64,000 nt of DNA from Mucilaginibacter arboris (lineage in GTDB: Bacteria > Bacteroidota > Bacteroidia > Sphingobacteriales > Sphingobacteriaceae), in the NCBI RefSeq assembly GCF_009754915.1, contig NZ_WPIK01000004.1:62001-126000 (forward strand), given 5' to 3'. Positions 2,689 through 59,110 of this stretch are shown one piece after another; position 1 is the first letter of the stretch; each line of letters begins with the position of its first letter. The notes under the pieces are model-generated. The model ran no database searches and had not been told where the DNA came from. It worked only from the letters and a program-made list of their open reading frames with translations. A program made the translations under genes and the position numbers.

Positions 2689-3576
2689 ATGGATTTTCAG
2701 TTCAACAGTCCCGTTCATAAAATTGAGGATGCTTCTTTTACCGATAAAAAAATAGAGCTTTACCTCAAGCGGGACGATCTGATCCACCCATTGATTTCGG
2801 GCAACAAATGGCGAAAATTAAAATTTCTACTTGCTGATGCCCGGCTTCAGCATAAAACCCATTTGGTTACTTTTGGCGGCGCTTTTTCTAACCATTTACT
2901 GGCTACGGCTGCTGCGGGCGCAACTTTTGGTTTTAAAACAACTGGTTTTGTACGAGGCGAAAAAGTAACAAACGATACACTTTTTATGTGTTCTTTGCTG
3001 GGGATGCATTTGATTTTTACTGATAGAAACAGTTATCAGCATAAACAGGAACTTTTTTCATCTAACTTTGCTAATCTGCCAGAAGCTTTTTTTATAGATG
3101 AAGGCGGCGCTTCTGCACAAGCTGCACTCGGGTGCAGCGAATTGGTAACTGAACTTCCTGAAGATTTTGATCATCTATTTTGTGCTTGTGGGACAGGAAC
3201 TACAGCAGCCGGTATATTGAACGGATTGACGGCGAAAAATCTTTCAACTCAATTTCATGCGGTCCCGGTTTTTAAAAATGCCGGATGGATGCGACTGGAA
3301 ATAGAAAAATACCTGCTAAAAGAAGCATCCTTTAATTTGCATAGCCAATATGGTTTTGGCGGATATGCAAAAACAACACCCGATCTCCTTTTTTTTATTA
3401 AAAAATTTATTGCAGCCACCGGCATTCTTATTGATCCGGTTTATACAGGCAAAATGCTCTTTGCCGTTTACGATCTCATTAACAAAAACTACTTTTTGCC
3501 CGGTTCTAAAATATTAGCTGTACATACCGGCGGTATTTTTGGTTTGCTTGGCATGAAAAAGCAGTTTCAGTTTTAA
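2689..3576 (+). CDS. 1-aminocyclopropane-1-carboxylate deaminase / D-cysteine desulfhydrase family PLP enzyme
   Basis: A 295-residue cytoplasmic fold-type II PLP enzyme. The segment SGNKWRKLKFLL carries the PLP-binding lysine at about residue 40, followed by the FGGAFSNHL substrate/phosphate region near residue 65 and the glycine-rich CGTGTTAAG loop near residue 166. These place it in the ACC deaminase/D-cysteine desulfhydrase group; the true substrate cannot be decided from these motifs, and D-cysteine is a common assignment for bacteria without plant contact. It starts 18 bases after the DUF6588 gene. It contains an exact R14-A copy at 2729-2742 and a one-mismatch reverse copy at 3315-3328, both read as normal codons. 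Confidence 0.85.
   Translation: MDFQFNSPVHKIEDASFTDKKIELYLKRDDLIHPLISGNKWRKLKFLLADARLQHKTHLVTFGGAFSNHLLATAAAGATFGFKTTGFVRGEKVTNDTLFMCSLLGMHLIFTDRNSYQHKQELFSSNFANLPEAFFIDEGGASAQAALGCSELVTELPEDFDHLFCACGTGTTAAGILNGLTAKNLSTQFHAVPVFKNAGWMRLEIEKYLLKEASFNLHSQYGFGGYAKTTPDLLFFIKKFIAATGILIDPVYTGKMLFAVYDLINKNYFLPGSKILAVHTGGIFGLLGMKKQFQF
2729..2742 (+). repeat. R14-A copy inside ACC-deaminase-like gene
   Basis: Exact ATGCTTCTTTTACC, translated in frame as part of EDASFTDKK, followed by GATAAAAAAATA. No insertion is apparent relative to the family. Confidence 0.7.
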
Positions 3577-5211: not shown

Positions 5212-5712
5212 TTACTTAACGGCAAGTAACCGCTCTATTTTTTTCTTGATTTTTGAGGAAGTCGGTTTCGTAAAAGGATAAAAAAAGTCGCATACTTCAC
5301 CTTCTTTGTTCACTAAATATTTATGAAAATTCCATCGTGGAGTAGAATTTAGGTGCCCGTTCAGGTTTTTATCAGATAAAAATTGGTATAAAGGATGTGC
5401 GTACGAGCCTCTCACCCTAATTTTATTGAATACCGGATAATTTGCACTGTGGTTTACTGTACAAAATTCTAATATCTTCTCGCCATCCAATGGTTCCTGT
5501 CCGCCAAAATCATTAGAAGGAAAAGCCAGGATTTCAAATTCCTGCTCTGCATATAACTGCCTCAACCCTTCTAACTCTGTTAATTGTGGTGTAAAACCGC
5601 AACCTGATGCTGTATTTACAATCAATAATACTTTGCCTTTAAAAACTTCCAGGCTTATTTCGTGCCCGCCAATAGTTTCTACATTAAACTGATAAATATT
5701 TTTTTCGGTCAT
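5212..5712 (-). CDS. Glutathione peroxidase family protein
   Basis: A 166-residue thiol peroxidase that reduces hydroperoxides. The peroxidatic cysteine is Cys38 in NTASGCGFTPQ (Cys rather than selenocysteine); the catalytic partners Gln72 (FGGQEP) and Trp127-Asn128 (TPRWNF) are present. The cysteine normally found in FPCN is Ser66 here, but Cys84 in EFCTVNHSANYPVF aligns with the resolving cysteine of thioredoxin-dependent members, so a two-cysteine, thioredoxin-type mechanism is likely. No signal peptide, so cytoplasmic. Nearby bshB1 suggests a thiol-redox neighbourhood, though the R14 pair separates them. Six bases from the DUF4294 gene upstream, probably one transcript. Confidence 0.88.
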   Translation of the reverse strand: MTEKNIYQFNVETIGGHEISLEVFKGKVLLIVNTASGCGFTPQLTELEGLRQLYAEQEFEILAFPSNDFGGQEPLDGEKILEFCTVNHSANYPVFNKIRVRGSYAHPLYQFLSDKNLNGHLNSTPRWNFHKYLVNKEGEVCDFFYPFTKPTSSKIKKKIERLLAVK

Positions 5713-26358: not shown

Positions 26359-28266
26359 CTACATATAAGCCCGCTGGTTCTTGCCTTCCATCCAATTCAG
26401 GAATGCTTTGTTTACCACCTTATTTCCTCCGGGTGTTGGGTAGTTGCCAGAAAAATACCAGTCGCCTAAATGATCGGGGCAGGCTTTGTGCAGGTTATCC
26501 AAAGTCTGGTAAATTACCTGTACTTCTGCTTTTATATTTGTTGGGGTAATAATTTCTGCGATCTTGTTTGATATCTGCTCATCCGTAAAAGGCTCATAAA
26601 TAGCTTTTACATAATTTTGGACCTGCTCTTTTGGCATATCTGCGCTGTCTTTGCATTGCTGGTAAACCTGATGGACCACTTTTTCCATCCCTTTATCTTT
26701 TAGTAAGCTAATGGCTGCTTCAAAAGCAACAAATTCTCCCATGCGGGACATATCGATACCATAACAATCCGGGTAGCGGATCTGTGGTGCAGAAGAAACT
26801 ACAATGATTTTTTTCGGTCCTAAACGATCAATAATTTTAAGGATACTTTGCTTTAAGGTAGTGCCCCGAACAATAGAATCATCCAGAACAACGAGCGTAT
26901 CTTTATCATTTTTAATGATTCCGTAAGTAGTATCATAAACATGTGCAACCATTTCGGACCGGTCTGCATCCTGTGTAATAAAAGTGCGCAACTTTACATC
27001 TTTTATCGCTAATTTTTCTACCCGCGGATAAATGTTCAATACCCGGTTTAGCTCTTCGTCGGTAATCTTGTCTGCCCGGTTCAGCAACTGTTCGCGCTGG
27101 TAGCATTTGATGTATTTGTGCACGCCTTCTACCATTCCATAAAATGCTATTTCGGCCGTATTCGGAATGTAAGAAAAAACCGTGTTTTCCAGGTCATGAT
27201 CTACCGTATCTAAAATCTGTTTACACAGTAAGCGGCCCAATTGCTTGCGTTCGCGATAAATAGAAGCATCACTTCCTCTCGAAAAATAAATCCGCTCAAA
27301 AGAACATGATTTTTTTTCTGTTGGTTCCCTGAACTGCTTTTGACTGATATTACCATCTTTCTTGATAATCAATGCATGTCCGGGTTTTATTTCTTTGATA
27401 TCACCAATTGGAATATTAAATGCTGTTTGAATAGCAGGCCGTTCGGAAGCAGCAACTACAATCTCATCATTTACATAGTAAAATGCCGGACGAATTCCAG
27501 CCGGATCACGCATTACAAAAGCATCACCATGACCAAAAATTCCGGCAATGGTATAACCGCCATCCCAGGATTTAGCTGATTTTTTCAGGATCTTTGCTAC
27601 ATCCAGATCGTTTGCAATCAGCTTCGTTATTTCAACATTATCATCCAATCCTTCTCGTTTATATTGATCGAATAAGCCCTGAACTTCACTGTCTAAAAAA
27701 TGCCCGATCTTTTCTAAAACGGTAACAGTATCTAATTTTTCTTTCGGATGCTGGCCAAGCTCAAATAATTGCTGTAATAATTCATCCGTATTCGTCATAT
27801 TAAAATTTCCGGCAATCATTAAATTCCTGGTCATCCAGTTATTCTGACGTAAAAACGGATGACAGTTTTCAATACTGTTTTTACCGTGCGTTCCATATCG
27901 TAAATGGCCTAATAAAACTTCTCCGGTAAAACTTACGTGTTCTTTTAACCAATCGGCATTATGAAACTCTTCCGGATATTCTTTTTGCACATCGGCAAAC
28001 TTTTTCTGGATGTATTCAAAAATATCGGCAACCGCATTTTTTGCCATAGAACGATGACGGCTGATATAGCGGTTTCCGGGCGCAACATCCAATTTAATCG
28101 TTGCAACGCCAGCCCCGTCCTGACCGCGGTTGTTCTGTTTTTCCATCAGCAAATACAGCTTGTTTAAGCCATAAAGTGATGTTCCGTATTTTTGCTGATA
28201 GTAAGAAAGGGGCTTTAACAAACGGATAAAGGCTACTCCGCATTCGTGTTTAATCTGATCGCTCAT
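26359..28266 (-). CDS. purF: Amidophosphoribosyltransferase (Bacteroidota form)
   Basis: Transfers the amide nitrogen of glutamine to PRPP, the first committed step of purine synthesis; cytoplasmic. The N-terminal nucleophile is Cys9 (HECGVAF), so an eight-residue propeptide must be removed, as in B. subtilis. RGQDGAG and the YGTHGKNSIENCHPF segment belong to the Ntn glutaminase domain; VVLDDSIVRGTT is the PRPP-binding loop. At 635 residues it is longer than the roughly 500 of E. coli, as in other Bacteroidota. An exact R14-B word lies at 27872-27885, read within GKNSIE. Together with purA it gives two purine genes in the window, unlinked. Confidence 0.93.
   Translation of the reverse strand: MSDQIKHECGVAFIRLLKPLSYYQQKYGTSLYGLNKLYLLMEKQNNRGQDGAGVATIKLDVAPGNRYISRHRSMAKNAVADIFEYIQKKFADVQKEYPEEFHNADWLKEHVSFTGEVLLGHLRYGTHGKNSIENCHPFLRQNNWMTRNLMIAGNFNMTNTDELLQQLFELGQHPKEKLDTVTVLEKIGHFLDSEVQGLFDQYKREGLDDNVEITKLIANDLDVAKILKKSAKSWDGGYTIAGIFGHGDAFVMRDPAGIRPAFYYVNDEIVVAASERPAIQTAFNIPIGDIKEIKPGHALIIKKDGNISQKQFREPTEKKSCSFERIYFSRGSDASIYRERKQLGRLLCKQILDTVDHDLENTVFSYIPNTAEIAFYGMVEGVHKYIKCYQREQLLNRADKITDEELNRVLNIYPRVEKLAIKDVKLRTFITQDADRSEMVAHVYDTTYGIIKNDKDTLVVLDDSIVRGTTLKQSILKIIDRLGPKKIIVVSSAPQIRYPDCYGIDMSRMGEFVAFEAAISLLKDKGMEKVVHQVYQQCKDSADMPKEQVQNYVKAIYEPFTDEQISNKIAEIITPTNIKAEVQVIYQTLDNLHKACPDHLGDWYFSGNYPTPGGNKVVNKAFLNWMEGKNQRAYM
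27872..27885 (+). repeat. R14-B copy inside purF
   Basis: Exact ATACTGTTTTTACC, antisense to purF, overlapping codons for the conserved glutaminase segment GKNSIE. The amino-acid sequence there is normal for the family. Confidence 0.6.
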
Positions 28267-37696: not shown

Positions 37697-38227
37697 TTAT
37701 TTGGCAAATACGCCTGGCTTTAAACCCAAACGGGTAATAACAGCATCGCTTTTATTGTAACGCGGATTTGCATACAGCATTATCACTTCGCTGTTTTTAT
37801 CAAAAATCATATCCAGGTTTTCGCTTTCTGCAATGGCTTGTACAGCTTTGGCCACTCTATCCTGTATAGGTTTAATCAACGTTGTACTGCGTTGTGCAAG
37901 TTCGCCATCCGGCCCAAACTTCTGACGCTGAAAATCTTTTGCGGCTTTTTCCTTTTCAATGATTTCGTTTTCACGGCGCTTTTTCATGTCGCCGGTCATT
38001 AAAACCTGATCTGCCTGGTAGGCTTTGTACATGCGGTCAATTTCCTGGAAACGTGTATCAGTTTCTTTTTGCCACTGGTCTGATATAGCTGCAATTTGCT
38101 TTTGTGAAGAAGCATATTCCGGTACGTGCTTTAAAATATATTCAGAATCAACATAAGCAAAACGCTGTGCAAATGTTGCTGTTGCAGCCAGCAACGGAAA
38201 TAACAGGGTTAAAAATAATCTTTTCAT
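37697..38227 (-). CDS. OmpH/Skp family periplasmic chaperone (first copy)
   Basis: A 176-residue exported protein with signal peptide (MKRLFLTLLFPLLAATATFAQ) followed by FAYVDSEYILKHVPEY and a charged coiled-coil (about 40-115), the Skp/OmpH architecture. It differs clearly from the neighbouring copy in sequence, so the tandem is an old duplication. Located directly downstream of bamA, 96 bases away. Confidence 0.92.
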   Translation of the reverse strand: MKRLFLTLLFPLLAATATFAQRFAYVDSEYILKHVPEYASSQKQIAAISDQWQKETDTRFQEIDRMYKAYQADQVLMTGDMKKRRENEIIEKEKAAKDFQRQKFGPDGELAQRSTTLIKPIQDRVAKAVQAIAESENLDMIFDKNSEVIMLYANPRYNKSDAVITRLGLKPGVFAK

Positions 38228-41992: not shown

Positions 41993-42793
41993 TTAATATT
42001 GCACAACCGGACATTTCTGACTGATGAATGTGTAAGAAATAGTAAAACCTGCAATCATATAAGTGTCCCTTTTTTGCAAATCCCCTCGCTGTGAACCTGT
42101 CGAACCGATGTAATAACCTGTTTTTTCGCCAGACCGGTCTGATAAAGCCCTGGAATAGGAATTATCCATACTGTTTTTATTGGCATAAAATCCGCTTACA
42201 TCATCTAAGTAATTTGTAAAAGCCGTGCGATAGCCAAGTTCCAAACCTAAGTTCCAGCTTTTATAAAAATTAACCTTAACGCCAACGCCATAAGGAATAC
42301 TTATAGCCGTGTAAGGATATTCTTTTTGTTGCCCTTCCGTTTTTAAAGGCCGCAGTACGTAGGTATCTCCCTGATATACTGTTTTAGGATTATAATTAAC
42401 AACAGCTACGCCCGCAAACATAAACGGCGACCATCTTTTTAAACTGATTCCTGGTTGATAATTAAAAAAGTTCAGTTCGCCGGTTAGCGATACTTCGTTT
42501 AAGGCAGAAAAAAAACTAAGGTTACGGTTACGCAACTGCTGGTTAGACGATAAGCTGTCTGCACCACGGATTGTACCATAAGTATATCCCAGTTTAGCCG
42601 AAAAATAACCGCTAAAGTTGTATTTAACAAAAGCACCGACAGAAAAATCAGTAAATTTTAAAGGATTGTTCTGGTTAAAATCGCCCATGTAACCGGAAGA
42701 GCCTGCAAATAAACCCGGTTCCCACTTCTGGGCAAAAGACCCGAAAGAAACCAGCAGTAAAAAAAGCAGGACAAAAAGTTTACGCATCAGCAT
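41993..42793 (-). CDS. DUF6089 family outer-membrane protein
   Basis: A 266-residue exported protein (signal peptide to about GSFAQ) with a beta-barrel pattern. WEPGLFAGSSGYMGDFNQ and the AKLGYTYGTIRGAD strand are characteristic of the DUF6089 family, found between nadK and uppS in many Bacteroidota. Function unknown; the neighbourhood suggests envelope biogenesis. Starts six bases after nadK. A one-mismatch R14-B word is at 42168-42181. Confidence 0.8.
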   Translation of the reverse strand: MLMRKLFVLLFLLLVSFGSFAQKWEPGLFAGSSGYMGDFNQNNPLKFTDFSVGAFVKYNFSGYFSAKLGYTYGTIRGADSLSSNQQLRNRNLSFFSALNEVSLTGELNFFNYQPGISLKRWSPFMFAGVAVVNYNPKTVYQGDTYVLRPLKTEGQQKEYPYTAISIPYGVGVKVNFYKSWNLGLELGYRTAFTNYLDDVSGFYANKNSMDNSYSRALSDRSGEKTGYYIGSTGSQRGDLQKRDTYMIAGFTISYTFISQKCPVVQY

Positions 42794-46559: not shown

Positions 46560-47306
46560 TTATTCAAAGATTAAACTAAACACAATATTGTGCAGATATA
46601 GTTTTTCCAACGGACTGGCATAAGGGTTGCTTTCAGGATATAAAACACTGCTGAAGGAATTGGAAAGCTTGATTTCGGGAGAAAGCTTAAAGTATTCCAG
46701 ATAAATATCGCAGCCAAAACCAGCTACATAAGAAGAAAAATTACGGACGTTTTTAAGTTTTCTTTCCAAAGGAGCTAAATCTGCTTCGTTCTGTTTGCCC
46801 TGGTTGCCGATACCAAAAGCATATTTGGCGCCACCAATTATATACGCTCTGAAATTTCCGATCCGATTAGATTTTAGTTTAAGTTCAAGCGGAAATTCTG
46901 CTTGTGTTGTCGATACGATCATTTGTTTATCAGGAGCCAGGTCTTGTGTCTGGTACTGATAGTTAATTGCCCGGTCGGCAAAAACCAAAGTTGGCACAGT
47001 ACGAATTTCCAGATTATCGGTAACACTGTAACGCGCCAGAAAACCCAAAGCAAAACCGCCTGTGCCCGGCGAACTAATGCCACTTAAAGAATCCGTAACA
47101 TAATGGTTTGTTCCCTGATCGTAATAAGGTGTACGCCAGTTGGGTTTCTTTAAAATTTTGTAAGATGAATTTACATATTGAAAAGTGTATCCGAAAGAAA
47201 AATTATTTTGGTCTGCGCCGCCAGCCCAAGCCTGGACAACCCGTTGCGCAGAAACTGTTAGAGATAAAAAAAACAGTGCTAAAAAGAGTATATATCTGCA
47301 AATCAT
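46560..47306 (-). CDS. porT: PorT family type IX secretion protein
   Basis: A 248-residue outer-membrane/periplasmic protein with signal peptide (cleavage near VSAQR) and a beta-barrel-like body (FGYTFQYVNSSYKILKKPNW, GFALGFLARYSVTDNLEIRTVPTLVFADR). Length, sequence and the position immediately after ubiE match PorT/SprT, a component needed for type IX secretion in Bacteroidota. It overlaps ubiE by four bases (ATGA). A candidate cargo with a sorting domain is encoded at 61245-61757. Confidence 0.82.
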   Translation of the reverse strand: MICRYILFLALFFLSLTVSAQRVVQAWAGGADQNNFSFGYTFQYVNSSYKILKKPNWRTPYYDQGTNHYVTDSLSGISSPGTGGFALGFLARYSVTDNLEIRTVPTLVFADRAINYQYQTQDLAPDKQMIVSTTQAEFPLELKLKSNRIGNFRAYIIGGAKYAFGIGNQGKQNEADLAPLERKLKNVRNFSSYVAGFGCDIYLEYFKLSPEIKLSNSFSSVLYPESNPYASPLEKLYLHNIVFSLIFE

Positions 47307-48034
47307 TTAACGCCGGTATAAACAGAACAAATGCCAAACGCCAATGGCCGGTTTTTGGTATTCTTGAATCCTACTTTCGCCATTAATCCTGTAAAACGTT
47401 CCCCGTCAGGAAAAGCAGCTACAGATTCTGGCAGATAAGAATAAGCACGCGCATCTTTAGAAAATAATTTACCGATAAATGGCGTAATATAATTGAAGTA
47501 AAAATTATACAAATGTTTGATTGGAAACACTTTAGGTTTTGAAAACTCCAGGATAACCGCTTTTCCGCCTGGTTTTAATACGCGGCACATATCGGCTAAT
47601 CCTGCTTCCAGGTTTTCAAAATTACGAACGCCGTAAGCAACCGTAACCGCATCAAACCGGTTGGCATCAAAAAGAAGTTTTTCAGAATCGCCTAAACGAA
47701 CTTCAAAACGATTGCCCATGCTTCTTTTATCGATCTTTTTTTGTGCGATGTTTAACATTCCCTGCGAAATATCTACGCCGATTATTTTTTTTGGTTGCAA
47801 AATTTTAATCGCCTCAAAAGCAAAATCCCCAGTCCCGGTTGCAACGTCTAAAATTAGTTGCGGCTTGTCTTTTTTCAGTTCGTTGATGGCTATTTTCCGC
47901 CAGATAATATCAATCCCAACCGACAAAAAATGGTTAAGAAAATCATAAGTTTTAGAAATATTGTTGAACATATCGGCCACCTGTTCTTTTTTGGTAACCT
48001 GTTCGTTTTGATAAGGCGTGATCGTTTTATTCAT
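47303..48034 (-). CDS. ubiE: Demethylmenaquinone methyltransferase
   Basis: SAM-dependent C-methylation in the last step of menaquinone synthesis, in the cytoplasm at the membrane. LDVATGTGDFAFEA near residue 62 is the SAM loop; GVRNFENLEAGLADMCRVLKPGG and YLPESVAAFPDGERF are the UbiE/MenG signatures. Length 243. An exact R14-A word is read in frame as DKRSMG (47718-47731), with no insertion relative to the family. Quinone product fits the complex I genes in this window. Confidence 0.95.
   Translation of the reverse strand: MNKTITPYQNEQVTKKEQVADMFNNISKTYDFLNHFLSVGIDIIWRKIAINELKKDKPQLILDVATGTGDFAFEAIKILQPKKIIGVDISQGMLNIAQKKIDKRSMGNRFEVRLGDSEKLLFDANRFDAVTVAYGVRNFENLEAGLADMCRVLKPGGKAVILEFSKPKVFPIKHLYNFYFNYITPFIGKLFSKDARAYSYLPESVAAFPDGERFTGLMAKVGFKNTKNRPLAFGICSVYTGVK
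47718..47731 (+). repeat. R14-A copy inside ubiE
   Basis: Exact ATGCTTCTTTTATC, antisense to ubiE, followed by GATCTTTTTTTG. Translated on the gene's strand as DKRSM in a variable loop. Confidence 0.7.
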
Positions 48035-53268: not shown

Positions 53269-53282
53269 ATACTTCTTTTACC
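53269..53282 (+). repeat. R14-A copy between the antitoxin and M3 peptidase genes
   Basis: Exact ATACTTCTTTTACC followed by GCCTATAATTTT, in the 135-base divergent gap. Confidence 0.8.
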
Positions 53283-55053: not shown

Positions 55054-55101
55054 CCGGTAAAAACAGTATGTTGTACTTTACGTTCATACTGTTTTTACCG
55101 G
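55054..55101. repeat. Inverted pair of R14-B copies forming a 17-bp hairpin
   Basis: CCGGTAAAAACAGTATG at 55054-55070 pairs perfectly with CATACTGTTTTTACCGG at 55085-55101, loop 14 bases. Here the words point outward (the TTTTTACC ends are outermost), the reverse of the A pairs. The following GATATTTTTAT gives a U-rich tail on plus-strand transcripts, so it can terminate the M3 peptidase message 16 bases after its stop. Confidence 0.85.
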
Positions 55102-55156: not shown

Positions 55157-56350
55157 ATGACTACTTACACTGCGCTCATTATACTTAGCGGACTGGTTAT
55201 TTTTTCTTACCTGTTCGATCTTATTGCTAAAAGGACCCGCGTTCCGGCAGTTTTGCTGCTGCTTGCTTTGGGCATTGGCCTGCACTTCCTGGTTACCTAT
55301 ATCGGTTTTAAAACATTTAATTTTTTAACCATTTTACCGGCATTAGGTACCATTGGTTTAATTCTGATTGTTTTAGAAGGCGCACTGGAACTTAAATACG
55401 ACAAAGAAAAAAACGGGTTGATCCTTCGTTCTTTTTTTTCCGCATTAACCATTTTAGTAAGTACAAGTATCGTTTTAGCGCTTATTTTGCAACATCTTTC
55501 GGGCAATACTTTCTCGGCCTGTTTTTTAAATGCCATTCCTTTCAGTATTGTCAGTTCGGCAATTGCCATTCCGTCTTCCAAAGCGATGGAAGACCACAAA
55601 AAAGAATACATTGTTTACGAAGCTTCTTTTTCTGATATTCTGGGCATTGTGCTGTTTAATTTTATGCTGAACAATCCCAGTGTTAAAGCAGGTTCTTTCG
55701 TTAATCTTGGGATCGAAACTTTTTCCATACTTCTTTTATCGGTAGTTTCCTGTTTATTTATGCTGTATCTGCTGAGCCGTTTACAGCATCATGTTAAGTT
55801 TTTCCTGATAATTTCTATCCTGATATTAGTTTATGCTTTTGGGGAGCAATTTCATTTATCGGCATTAATCCTGGTGCTGGCTTTTGGCTTGTTTCTAAAC
55901 AATGCCAACCGGATTAAACTAAAATGGTTCAGAAAATACTTTTTATATCCAAAACTTTCGCGCGATTTACGCCAGCTTTTCCAGTTATCCGCAGAAAGTG
56001 CTTTTATTATCCGTACTTTTTTCTTCGTGATATTTGGTTTCACTATGAATTTACAGGAACTGATAAACCTGGAAGTGCTGGAATATGGGGTTGTAATTTT
56101 GGTTGCGATTTACCTGATCCGTTTTATCAGCCTAAAATATATAGGCAAAACAGAACTGCTGCCCGAAATATTTATTTCGCCCCGGGGTTTAATTACTATT
56201 TTATTATACTACAATTTGCCGGATAATTTGAAGCTAAAAGGAATTGAAACAGGATTATTATTTTTAATTATCCTGGGGACCAGCATTATTATGAGCTTAG
56301 GTTTATTACTTTCGGGAAAAAAAGAAGCACCAGAACCTATATTTGACTAA
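55157..56350 (+). CDS. Cation:proton antiporter (CPA family)
   Basis: A 397-residue inner-membrane protein with about twelve hydrophobic helices in the Na+/H+ exchanger (CPA1/CPA2) pattern: FDLIAKRTRVPAVLLLLALGIGLH near the start and EGALELKYDKEKNG after helix 3 match. It ends in a short polar tail without the TrkA-N/C domains some relatives have. Ion specificity unknown. An exact R14-A word (55727-55740) is read in frame as ILLLS. Lies close to potassium (KUP) transport genes. Confidence 0.85.
   Translation: MTTYTALIILSGLVIFSYLFDLIAKRTRVPAVLLLLALGIGLHFLVTYIGFKTFNFLTILPALGTIGLILIVLEGALELKYDKEKNGLILRSFFSALTILVSTSIVLALILQHLSGNTFSACFLNAIPFSIVSSAIAIPSSKAMEDHKKEYIVYEASFSDILGIVLFNFMLNNPSVKAGSFVNLGIETFSILLLSVVSCLFMLYLLSRLQHHVKFFLIISILILVYAFGEQFHLSALILVLAFGLFLNNANRIKLKWFRKYFLYPKLSRDLRQLFQLSAESAFIIRTFFFVIFGFTMNLQELINLEVLEYGVVILVAIYLIRFISLKYIGKTELLPEIFISPRGLITILLYYNLPDNLKLKGIETGLLFLIILGTSIIMSLGLLLSGKKEAPEPIFD
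55727..55740 (+). repeat. R14-A copy inside the antiporter gene
   Basis: Exact ATACTTCTTTTATC, in frame on the gene's own strand as Ile-Leu-Leu-Leu-Ser of a membrane helix; here the downstream A/T tract is weak (GGTAGTTTCC). Confidence 0.6.
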
Positions 56351-56613: not shown

Positions 56614-57279
56614 TTATTTTTTCTTTCTGCTGAAAATACCGCTGTTCCAGTTTTCTGTTTGCAAAAACGGTTGCTGATCGATCCACATCAGCCAAAAAGC
56701 AGTTACCAAAATACCCAAAGCGGAACCGGCTGTTACATCAACCAAAAAATGTTCGCTTAAATACATGCGCGAATACGCTACCAGAACAGCCAGTAGCAGC
56801 ATTAACGGCCCCCACCATTTCTTTTTAGCAACATAAGTTAACACAAGGGCGGCCGTAAAAGCAGAAACCGAATGGCCTGATGGAAAGCTGTTGGTATCTA
56901 ACATAACTACTCCTTTTACCATATAAATTCCGCTTAGTTTTTTTGCAAAGAACAAATGTGGCCTCGGGGCCTGTACCAAATGTTTAATGGTTTGAGAAAT
57001 GATAAACGTAAGTAAGTAACTGGAAGCCAGTAAAAACCCTTTTCTGTAATTGATAAGAATTACAATACCAGAAATAATTATACAACCTGCACTTGCGCCC
57101 AACTGGGTAACACGGGTAAAAAAAACATCGGTAAAAACAGTATGGATACGGTTAACAGCAAAATACAACTCTTCTTTTGTAAAAAAGAACATTAGTAAAA
57201 TACATAAAGCCAGTAAAATCAAATATGGGTATAGTAATGAACTGGTTTTGTTTAAAAAATGCTGCAATTTAACTTTCAT
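56614..57279 (-). CDS. PAP2 family phosphatase
   Basis: A 221-residue inner-membrane phosphatase with about six helices. Family motifs: KHLVQAPRPHLF (about 95), SFPSGHSVSAF (about 132) and SRMYLSEHFLVDV (about 170), which together hold the catalytic His and Asp. It could act on undecaprenyl pyrophosphate or phosphatidate. It is convergent with DUF433 and divergent from the permease. An exact R14-B word lies at 57130-57143. Confidence 0.92.
   Translation of the reverse strand: MKVKLQHFLNKTSSLLYPYLILLALCILLMFFFTKEELYFAVNRIHTVFTDVFFTRVTQLGASAGCIIISGIVILINYRKGFLLASSYLLTFIISQTIKHLVQAPRPHLFFAKKLSGIYMVKGVVMLDTNSFPSGHSVSAFTAALVLTYVAKKKWWGPLMLLLAVLVAYSRMYLSEHFLVDVTAGSALGILVTAFWLMWIDQQPFLQTENWNSGIFSRKKK
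57130..57143 (-). repeat. R14-B copy inside the PAP2 gene
   Basis: Exact GGTAAAAACAGTAT (ATACTGTTTTTACC on the minus strand, which is the coding strand), followed by GATGTTTTTTTT. Confidence 0.6.
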
Positions 57280-59066: not shown

Positions 59067-59110
59067 ATGCTTCTTTTAGCACACAAATTTTTATGTGCTA
59101 AAAGAAGCAT
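59067..59110. repeat. Inverted pair of R14-A copies forming a 17-bp hairpin
   Basis: ATGCTTCTTTTAGCACA (59067-59083) pairs perfectly with TGTGCTAAAAGAAGCAT (59094-59110), loop ten bases. It lies between the ends of the convergent permease and KUP genes, four bases and six bases from their stops, so it looks like a shared bidirectional terminator built from the repeat. Both copies carry the same single change (AGC for AYC), so the pair has kept complementarity. Confidence 0.85.

Follow-up and report, generated by a model that had tools for sequence, protein, structure and literature searches.

Within the window, by which we mean the whole 64-kb stretch of DNA that was analysed, the open reading frame at 47303..48034 (minus strand) encodes a ubiE/menG methyltransferase (PF01209, E 2.5e-64; TIGR01934, E 2e-76), and antisense to it, on the plus strand at 47718..47731, lies a TC-form copy of a dispersed 14-base word, ATGCTTCTTTTATC, over the codons for the peptide DKRSM. 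The core of this copy is also found in L002, a Sphingobacteriaceae metagenome assembly obtained from lichen data, and in L003, a metagenome assembly of an uncultured Mucilaginibacter; both bear the word, and their genomes are counted below as G027 and G002, respectively, beside the window's own genome, G000 (4,163,231 bases in 83 contigs). The word comes in a TC and a GT form, and the window holds 18 exact copies of the former (ATRCTTCTTTTAYC), 11 of the latter (ATRCTGTTTTTAYC) and 62 looser cores, RCT(TC|GT)TTTTA. An earlier note had named ubiE and three further genes as carrying copies, together with the peptides that they spell, and all four are as described. The other three copies lie on the plus strand: a TC-form word at 2729..2742 over DASFT in a gene for a PLP enzyme resembling ACC deaminase/D-cysteine desulfhydrase (TIGR01275, E 6e-43, below the model's cut-off), a GT-form word at 27872..27885 over GKNSI in purF (TIGR01134, E 3e-40, below cut-off), and a TC-form word at 55727..55740, also present in L002, over ILLLS in a hydrophobic stretch of an antiporter-like membrane protein whose match to an antiporter model is weak and below cut-off (E 8e-6).

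The earlier note had proposed that copies inside genes replace ordinary codons without insertion, and alignments with relatives bear this out: no gap falls in the word in any of 80 ubiE or 29 purF relatives (30 purF sequences were aligned, the window's own copy being left out), and 2 of 24 relatives of the ACC-deaminase-like gene, both only 41–42% identical, are gapped there (25 aligned minus the window's own copy; 5 further loci had no coverage). In ubiE, all 80 relatives are gap-free in the word peptide and within 8 residues of it, AKRGL and AKRNL being the commonest peptides at the position of DKRSM (37/80), and the codons shown for word-free relatives are several single-letter changes away from the word. 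As the note had held, the purF peptide occurs throughout the family; L165 and L173, relatives from word-free genera, already spell GGTAAAAACAGCATC at this site, so the purF copy says nothing about gain. For the antiporter-like gene the only match among 80 loci is in L002, so there is no word-free relative to compare. Among the coding words of the window and of contig C1 of G000 (397 kb), set against outgroup segments of 50% identity or more, none of 88 alignments is gapped in a strict word (11 sites; 78 of the 88 come from ubiE) and 11 of 204 are gapped in a looser core (33 sites), all 11 at window position 42168, against 46 of 5,159 control windows; comparisons inside the genus give a gap in 1 of 42 alignments of strict words and in 2 of 118 of looser cores. 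When no identity filter is applied near ubiE, gaps occur in 14 of 209 word or core alignments and in 86 of 4,665 control windows; the looser core at 42168 (peptide NKNSM) accounts for 12 of these 14 and another at 37788 for the remaining 2. Insertions of at least 14 bases coinciding with words, which would have refuted replacement of codons, were sought in coding sequence and none was seen; in a three-way alignment, words are gained or lost in place at window positions 42170, 52747 and 57132. The GT-form word at 57130..57143 (minus strand, in the gene at 56614-57279) is present in L002 and altered without length change in L003, and an intergenic TC-form word at 53269..53282 (plus strand) is retained in all three species compared. 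The same test of substitution against insertion was applied to the Haemophilus USS by Redfield and colleagues (PMC1626085).

Such words are scattered some two thousand times per genome in a small group related to Mucilaginibacter. In G000 the TC form occurs 1,606 times (817 forward, 789 reverse), and its backwards-read control does not occur at all. If either core is accepted (ATRCTKYTTTTAYC), the copy numbers in the genus's three genomes are 1,045 + 1,042, 1,209 + 1,258 and 869 + 747, while the remaining 298 of 301 family genomes hold at most 15 each, which is chance level (their controls reach at most 13). A sample of 300 genomes drawn by order, every member of which belongs to the same family, has at most 4 copies of ATGCTTCTTTTAYC outside the genus, and in a phylum sample (n = 395) the other 394 genomes have at most 7 copies of ATRCTTCTTTTAYC, again chance level; the family, order and phylum samples overlap. 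Mucilaginibacter PPCGB 2223 (L004, G303) has zero words, and the exact word is absent from the other 78 of 80 ubiE loci, most of them labelled Mucilaginibacter. No 9-mer comes near the genus counts in these sister taxa (400 kb of PPCGB 2223 and the 78 other ubiE loci), the top ones being seen 19 times against 1 expected and 108 times against 7 expected, the latter in orthologous regions of many species. Near ubiE, six loci (L008, L020, L042, L053, L055 and L063) have locally repeated 10-mers of their own, e.g. TTTCGACTTT in L055 and GTCTTTCGTC in L053, which are probably clustered repeats of another kind. Among viral contigs an extended pattern had one match, in L222, whose 5.8-kb piece has a single full word, and this we attribute to chance. 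Strict words are scarcer in DNA that G000 does not share with G027 (3 in 19 kb versus 105 in 208 kb; C1 5900-233000), which is suggestive only, the unshared pieces all being shorter than 1.5 kb.

The motif, built from 332 CTTCTTTTA and 156 CTGTTTTTA cores of C1 and the window, extends over about 24 bases: ATRCT(TC or GT)TTTTAYC, then approximately RSC, then an A/T tract. Conservation spans from the A three letters ahead of the core to the end of this tract (A/T fraction 0.87–0.99 at +18 to +23, numbered from the first A); a second downstream A/T tract is at most faint, and there is no conservation past about 30 bases around the word. In 861 kb of genus DNA (C1, the window and 400 kb of G027, with expectations from trinucleotide frequencies), the 12-mer ATGCTTCTTTTA occurs 327 times against 0.6 expected, and sequences with 0, 1, 2 and 3 mismatches to it occur 549, 13.6, 2.3 and 1.2 times as often as expected; a graded excess of near-misses of this kind has been described as a sign of drive (PMC1939737). 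At the two variable core letters the same DNA has TC 423 times (1.1 expected) and GT 178 times (2.3 expected), against 31 (4.9 expected) and 12 (1.7 expected) for the one-step intermediates TT and GC. CT-TC-TTTTA and CT-GT-TTTTA are two separate optima. Seen 15 times in these 861 kb, about 22 times the expectation, ATGCTTTGTTTA is a possible third core.

The two cores also exchange in place. At the 118 sites where G000 and G027 share a conserved outer core, we find 70 TC/TC, 28 GT/GT and 13 TC/GT combinations, the remainder being 4 TC/TT, 2 GC/GT and 1 CC/TC; the outer core differs between the two genomes at a further 35 sites. When five identical letters are demanded on either side, both core letters have changed in 9 of 86 words versus 472 of 30,197 positions elsewhere, and one alone in 4 of 86 versus 7,610 of 30,197. 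In the ACC-deaminase-like gene, G027 and G002 carry the GT form where the window has TC, a swap that exchanges Ser for Val (DASFT, DAVFT). On the simplest reading, it is the DNA word that is kept and not the peptide.

We aligned C1 and the window to G027 and L002 (217,820 columns, 79.8% identity) and followed the fate of each word. Aligned blocks contain 86 G000 words: the partner also has a word at 57 of these sites, substitutions alone separate the two genomes at 20, and the remaining 9 touch a gap. Starting from the partner's 82 words, 57 are kept, 13 differ by substitution only and 12 touch a gap. Under the same tolerance, random control 14-mers are kept in 2,849 of 30,524 cases (9.3%) and A/T-matched ones in 854 of 7,909 (10.8%). 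The strong retention at fixed sites and the graded near-misses both fit the earlier note's suggestion of point change with selection or biased conversion. Gaps at words (10.5%, 9/86, and 14.6%, 12/82) are somewhat commoner than in the controls (5.6% and 7.6%). Both genomes have the 10-base core in 15 of the 21 gap-touching entries; five others have small or scattered gaps, and one has a 15-base gap that spans 11 letters of a 14-letter G027 word and cannot be assigned to insertion or deletion. That single gap, and three near-identical adjacent copies in one intergenic space of L003 (alignment columns 5470-5631), are what a small mobile element inserting copies of itself has in its favour, but the word is gap-free at 11 coding sites against word-free relatives, conservation stops by about 30 bases and the cores swap in place, so that such an element, already disfavoured, is barely tenable. 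We are nearly certain that substitution creates the words and that they are maintained at their sites.

Among 210 strict words in C1 and the window, 90 lie wholly in genes, 102 between genes and 18 straddle a boundary, with 0.22 words per kb of genic and 2.6 per kb of intergenic DNA (genes being taken from a greedy open-reading-frame set and not from a trained gene caller); spaces flanked by convergent genes are the densest (4.0 per kb), followed by those between tandem (3.0) and divergent ones (1.6). Close neighbours within 60 bp are inverted in 33 pairs and on the same strand in 7 (p 4e-5), and of 50 paired words in intergenic DNA, 20 are flanked by convergent genes. Several face-to-face pairs are 15 or 16 bp apart, a spacing that on our reading of the pair list places each word's A-run in its partner's A/T tract. 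The window has an inverted pair of GT-form words between genes at 55056..55099 and, between convergent genes at 59067..59110, an inverted pair of looser cores sharing a central A/T tract, where L002 and L003 have exact words. The 33 inverted pairs, with a median predicted RNA energy of -16.3 kcal/mol, and the density peak between convergent genes would suit a regulatory or termination element whose inverted pairs end transcripts and whose single copies act in mRNA; set against this, 90 of the 210 strict words are contained entirely in called genes, and between tandem genes there is no orientation bias (57 words with the genes, 47 against, p 0.38). We regard this explanation as improbable, and the inverted pairs look like a secondary use of the word. 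A polar recombination or segregation word of the Chi or KOPS type, for which the high genome-wide copy number might speak, is more improbable still: copies divide evenly between the strands, both in the whole genome (817/789) and in 40-kb bins along C1, no polarity being detectable there (the genome is a draft with unknown replichores), and the word is denser between genes than within them. Inside genes, neither strict words within 100 bp of a gene end (22 versus 18.1 expected, p 0.30) nor looser cores near gene ends (65 versus 52.7 expected, p 0.06) are significantly enriched; a bias of USS towards gene ends has been reported for Pasteurellaceae (PMC2346458). Most of the longest core-free gap of C1 is spanned by a 2,352-codon open reading frame (C1 43749-50805, minus strand) that begins in L084, and ribosomal RNA was rejected as the cause of the gap, there being no Rfam match above gathering score.

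Thousands of retained sites, an A/T tract by the core and an intergenic preference could mean that the words are sites bound by some abundant chromosomal protein of the genus (nucleoid-associated, chromosome-organising or involved in repair), with point mutation and selection for many sites having supplied them. Two sharp cores with rare intermediates would be unexpected of a loose architectural site, as would copies in ordinary housekeeping genes, and there is no strand or orientation preference. None of these points excludes a chromosomal protein, which we consider unlikely.

What is observed is that one genus carries thousands of copies of a word, in both orientations, which are gained and lost by substitution and kept far above background. 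By analogy with known systems, we lean, with moderate confidence, towards a self word of the uptake type, spread through point changes combined with drive or selection, uptake itself being inferred. On this view, a DNA-binding component of the transformation machinery would prefer word-carrying fragments, recombination with DNA of the same kind would keep restoring and spreading words as a molecular drive, and selection on proteins would exclude words from most codons. This reading draws support from the copy number, the occurrence on both strands, the control, the limit to one genus, the A/T-tract motif, the grading of near-misses, the gap-free outgroup alignments at 11 coding sites, the core swapping, the retention of 57 of 86 words, the intergenic and convergent density, the excess of inverted pairs, and the presence of ComEC, DprA and a helix-hairpin-helix (HHH) barrel protein encoded beside comEC. 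Against it stand the lack of a pilus ATPase above cut-off, the lack of DUF5689, a gene-end bias that is not significant, and alignment gaps that touch words slightly more than controls, mostly at the edges of shared cores. In the absence of uptake data, preferential DNA uptake is only somewhat favoured as the force that maintains the words, and their likeness to uptake words stays an analogy.

The word resembles the Pasteurellaceae USS (Hin and Apl types) in its thousand-fold dispersal on both strands, substitution origin and downstream A/T segments (PMC1626085), and in its hairpin pairs between genes (PMC1852404); it differs in its letters, in belonging to one genus of Bacteroidota, in having two exchangeable cores per genome and in that no pilus ATPase was found. 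With the Neisseriaceae DUS, whose receptor ComP is a type IV pilin (PMC12616744), it shares abundance, dialects of a few letters and inverted terminator pairs (PMC12616744, PMC1852404); inverted USS and DUS pairs are described in PMC1852404. Unlike DUS dialects, which go by species, both cores occur in each genome examined and interchange at orthologous sites. Of what characterises USS and DUS, copy number in both orientations, substitution origin, an A/T-flanked motif, inverted pairs, and ComEC with DprA are met, and type IV pilus uptake machinery (PF00437 search) is not. We do not class the word as a member of USS/DUS, since no pilus ATPase passed the cut-off in the genus and uptake is only inferred. 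Neither the strand skew of Chi/KOPS nor the insertion of REP/MITE elements against empty sites is met, with the unpolarised 15-base gap as the one exception. Within Bacteroidota, transformation of Riemerella anatipestifer needs ComEC, DprA, an outer-membrane protein and an HHH protein (PMC8459023), a likeness limited by the fact that here HHH and barrel are joined in one protein beside comEC and DUF5689 was not found in the genus; the parts of that source consulted mention no uptake word. A literature search for uptake words in Bacteroidetes/Bacteroidota or Pedobacter, which did not cover subscription journals, found no paper.

ComEC (PF03772) was detected in 29 of 31 genomes and DprA (PF02481) in all 31, including in each case all three of the genus. 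The T2SSE/type IV pilus ATPase (PF00437) is above cut-off in 8 of 31 genomes and in none of the three, which have weak partial matches only (other pilus genes were outside the search); DUF5689, which forms part of one transformation protein of Riemerella, was found in 9 of 31 and likewise in none of the three. In G000, comEC lies at L223:8823-10943 and the neighbouring gene at L223:10947-12995 (minus strand), ending three bases upstream of comEC. Its product has 682 residues, a signal-peptide-like start and the final letters ...QVRYRF, an ending of a type typical of outer-membrane barrels. Relatives lie beside comEC in G002 (78% identical) and G027 (81% identical) and in all 13 further family loci with that neighbourhood (L239 being partial; L227, whose contig ends before it, was outside the count), and none was detected in 10 loci of other families, 3 of them shorter than 4 kb. 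HHH_3 is matched by 12 of 13 aligned members (best E 1.9e-9), the G000 member reaching only E 0.019, and the PgaA barrel model by one of the 13 (E 0.0012). At residues of about 57–130 the family profile matches ComEA chains in the PDB (8dss, E 0.0016; 8dfk, E 0.037) and also an endonuclease/exonuclease/phosphatase-domain protein (9yi2, E 0.0013). From these matches we infer a ComEA-like helix-hairpin-helix fused to what is probably an outer-membrane barrel.

The HHH-barrel protein may be the reader of the word, and is a candidate receptor or translocator on gene position and domains alone; that role has not been shown. ComEC, DprA and the HHH-barrel protein occur family-wide and so do not explain the limit of the word to one genus; reading of the word by that genus would need a changed specificity, and the protein may be a general DNA-uptake component of Sphingobacteriaceae. 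If the word is of uptake type, it would be an independent case in Bacteroidota. The fuller proposal, a third, independent origin of an uptake word, outside the Proteobacteria and without a type IV pilus, with two co-equal exchangeable cores and a ComEA-barrel reader, can be offered only tentatively. The limit to one genus makes word-free sister genera usable for comparison, and with control words and a candidate receptor in hand the question of uptake is directly testable; the pairing of TC and GT reveals the letters that such a reader would sense jointly. The HHH-barrel gene itself holds a GT-form word, in its GKNSM codons.
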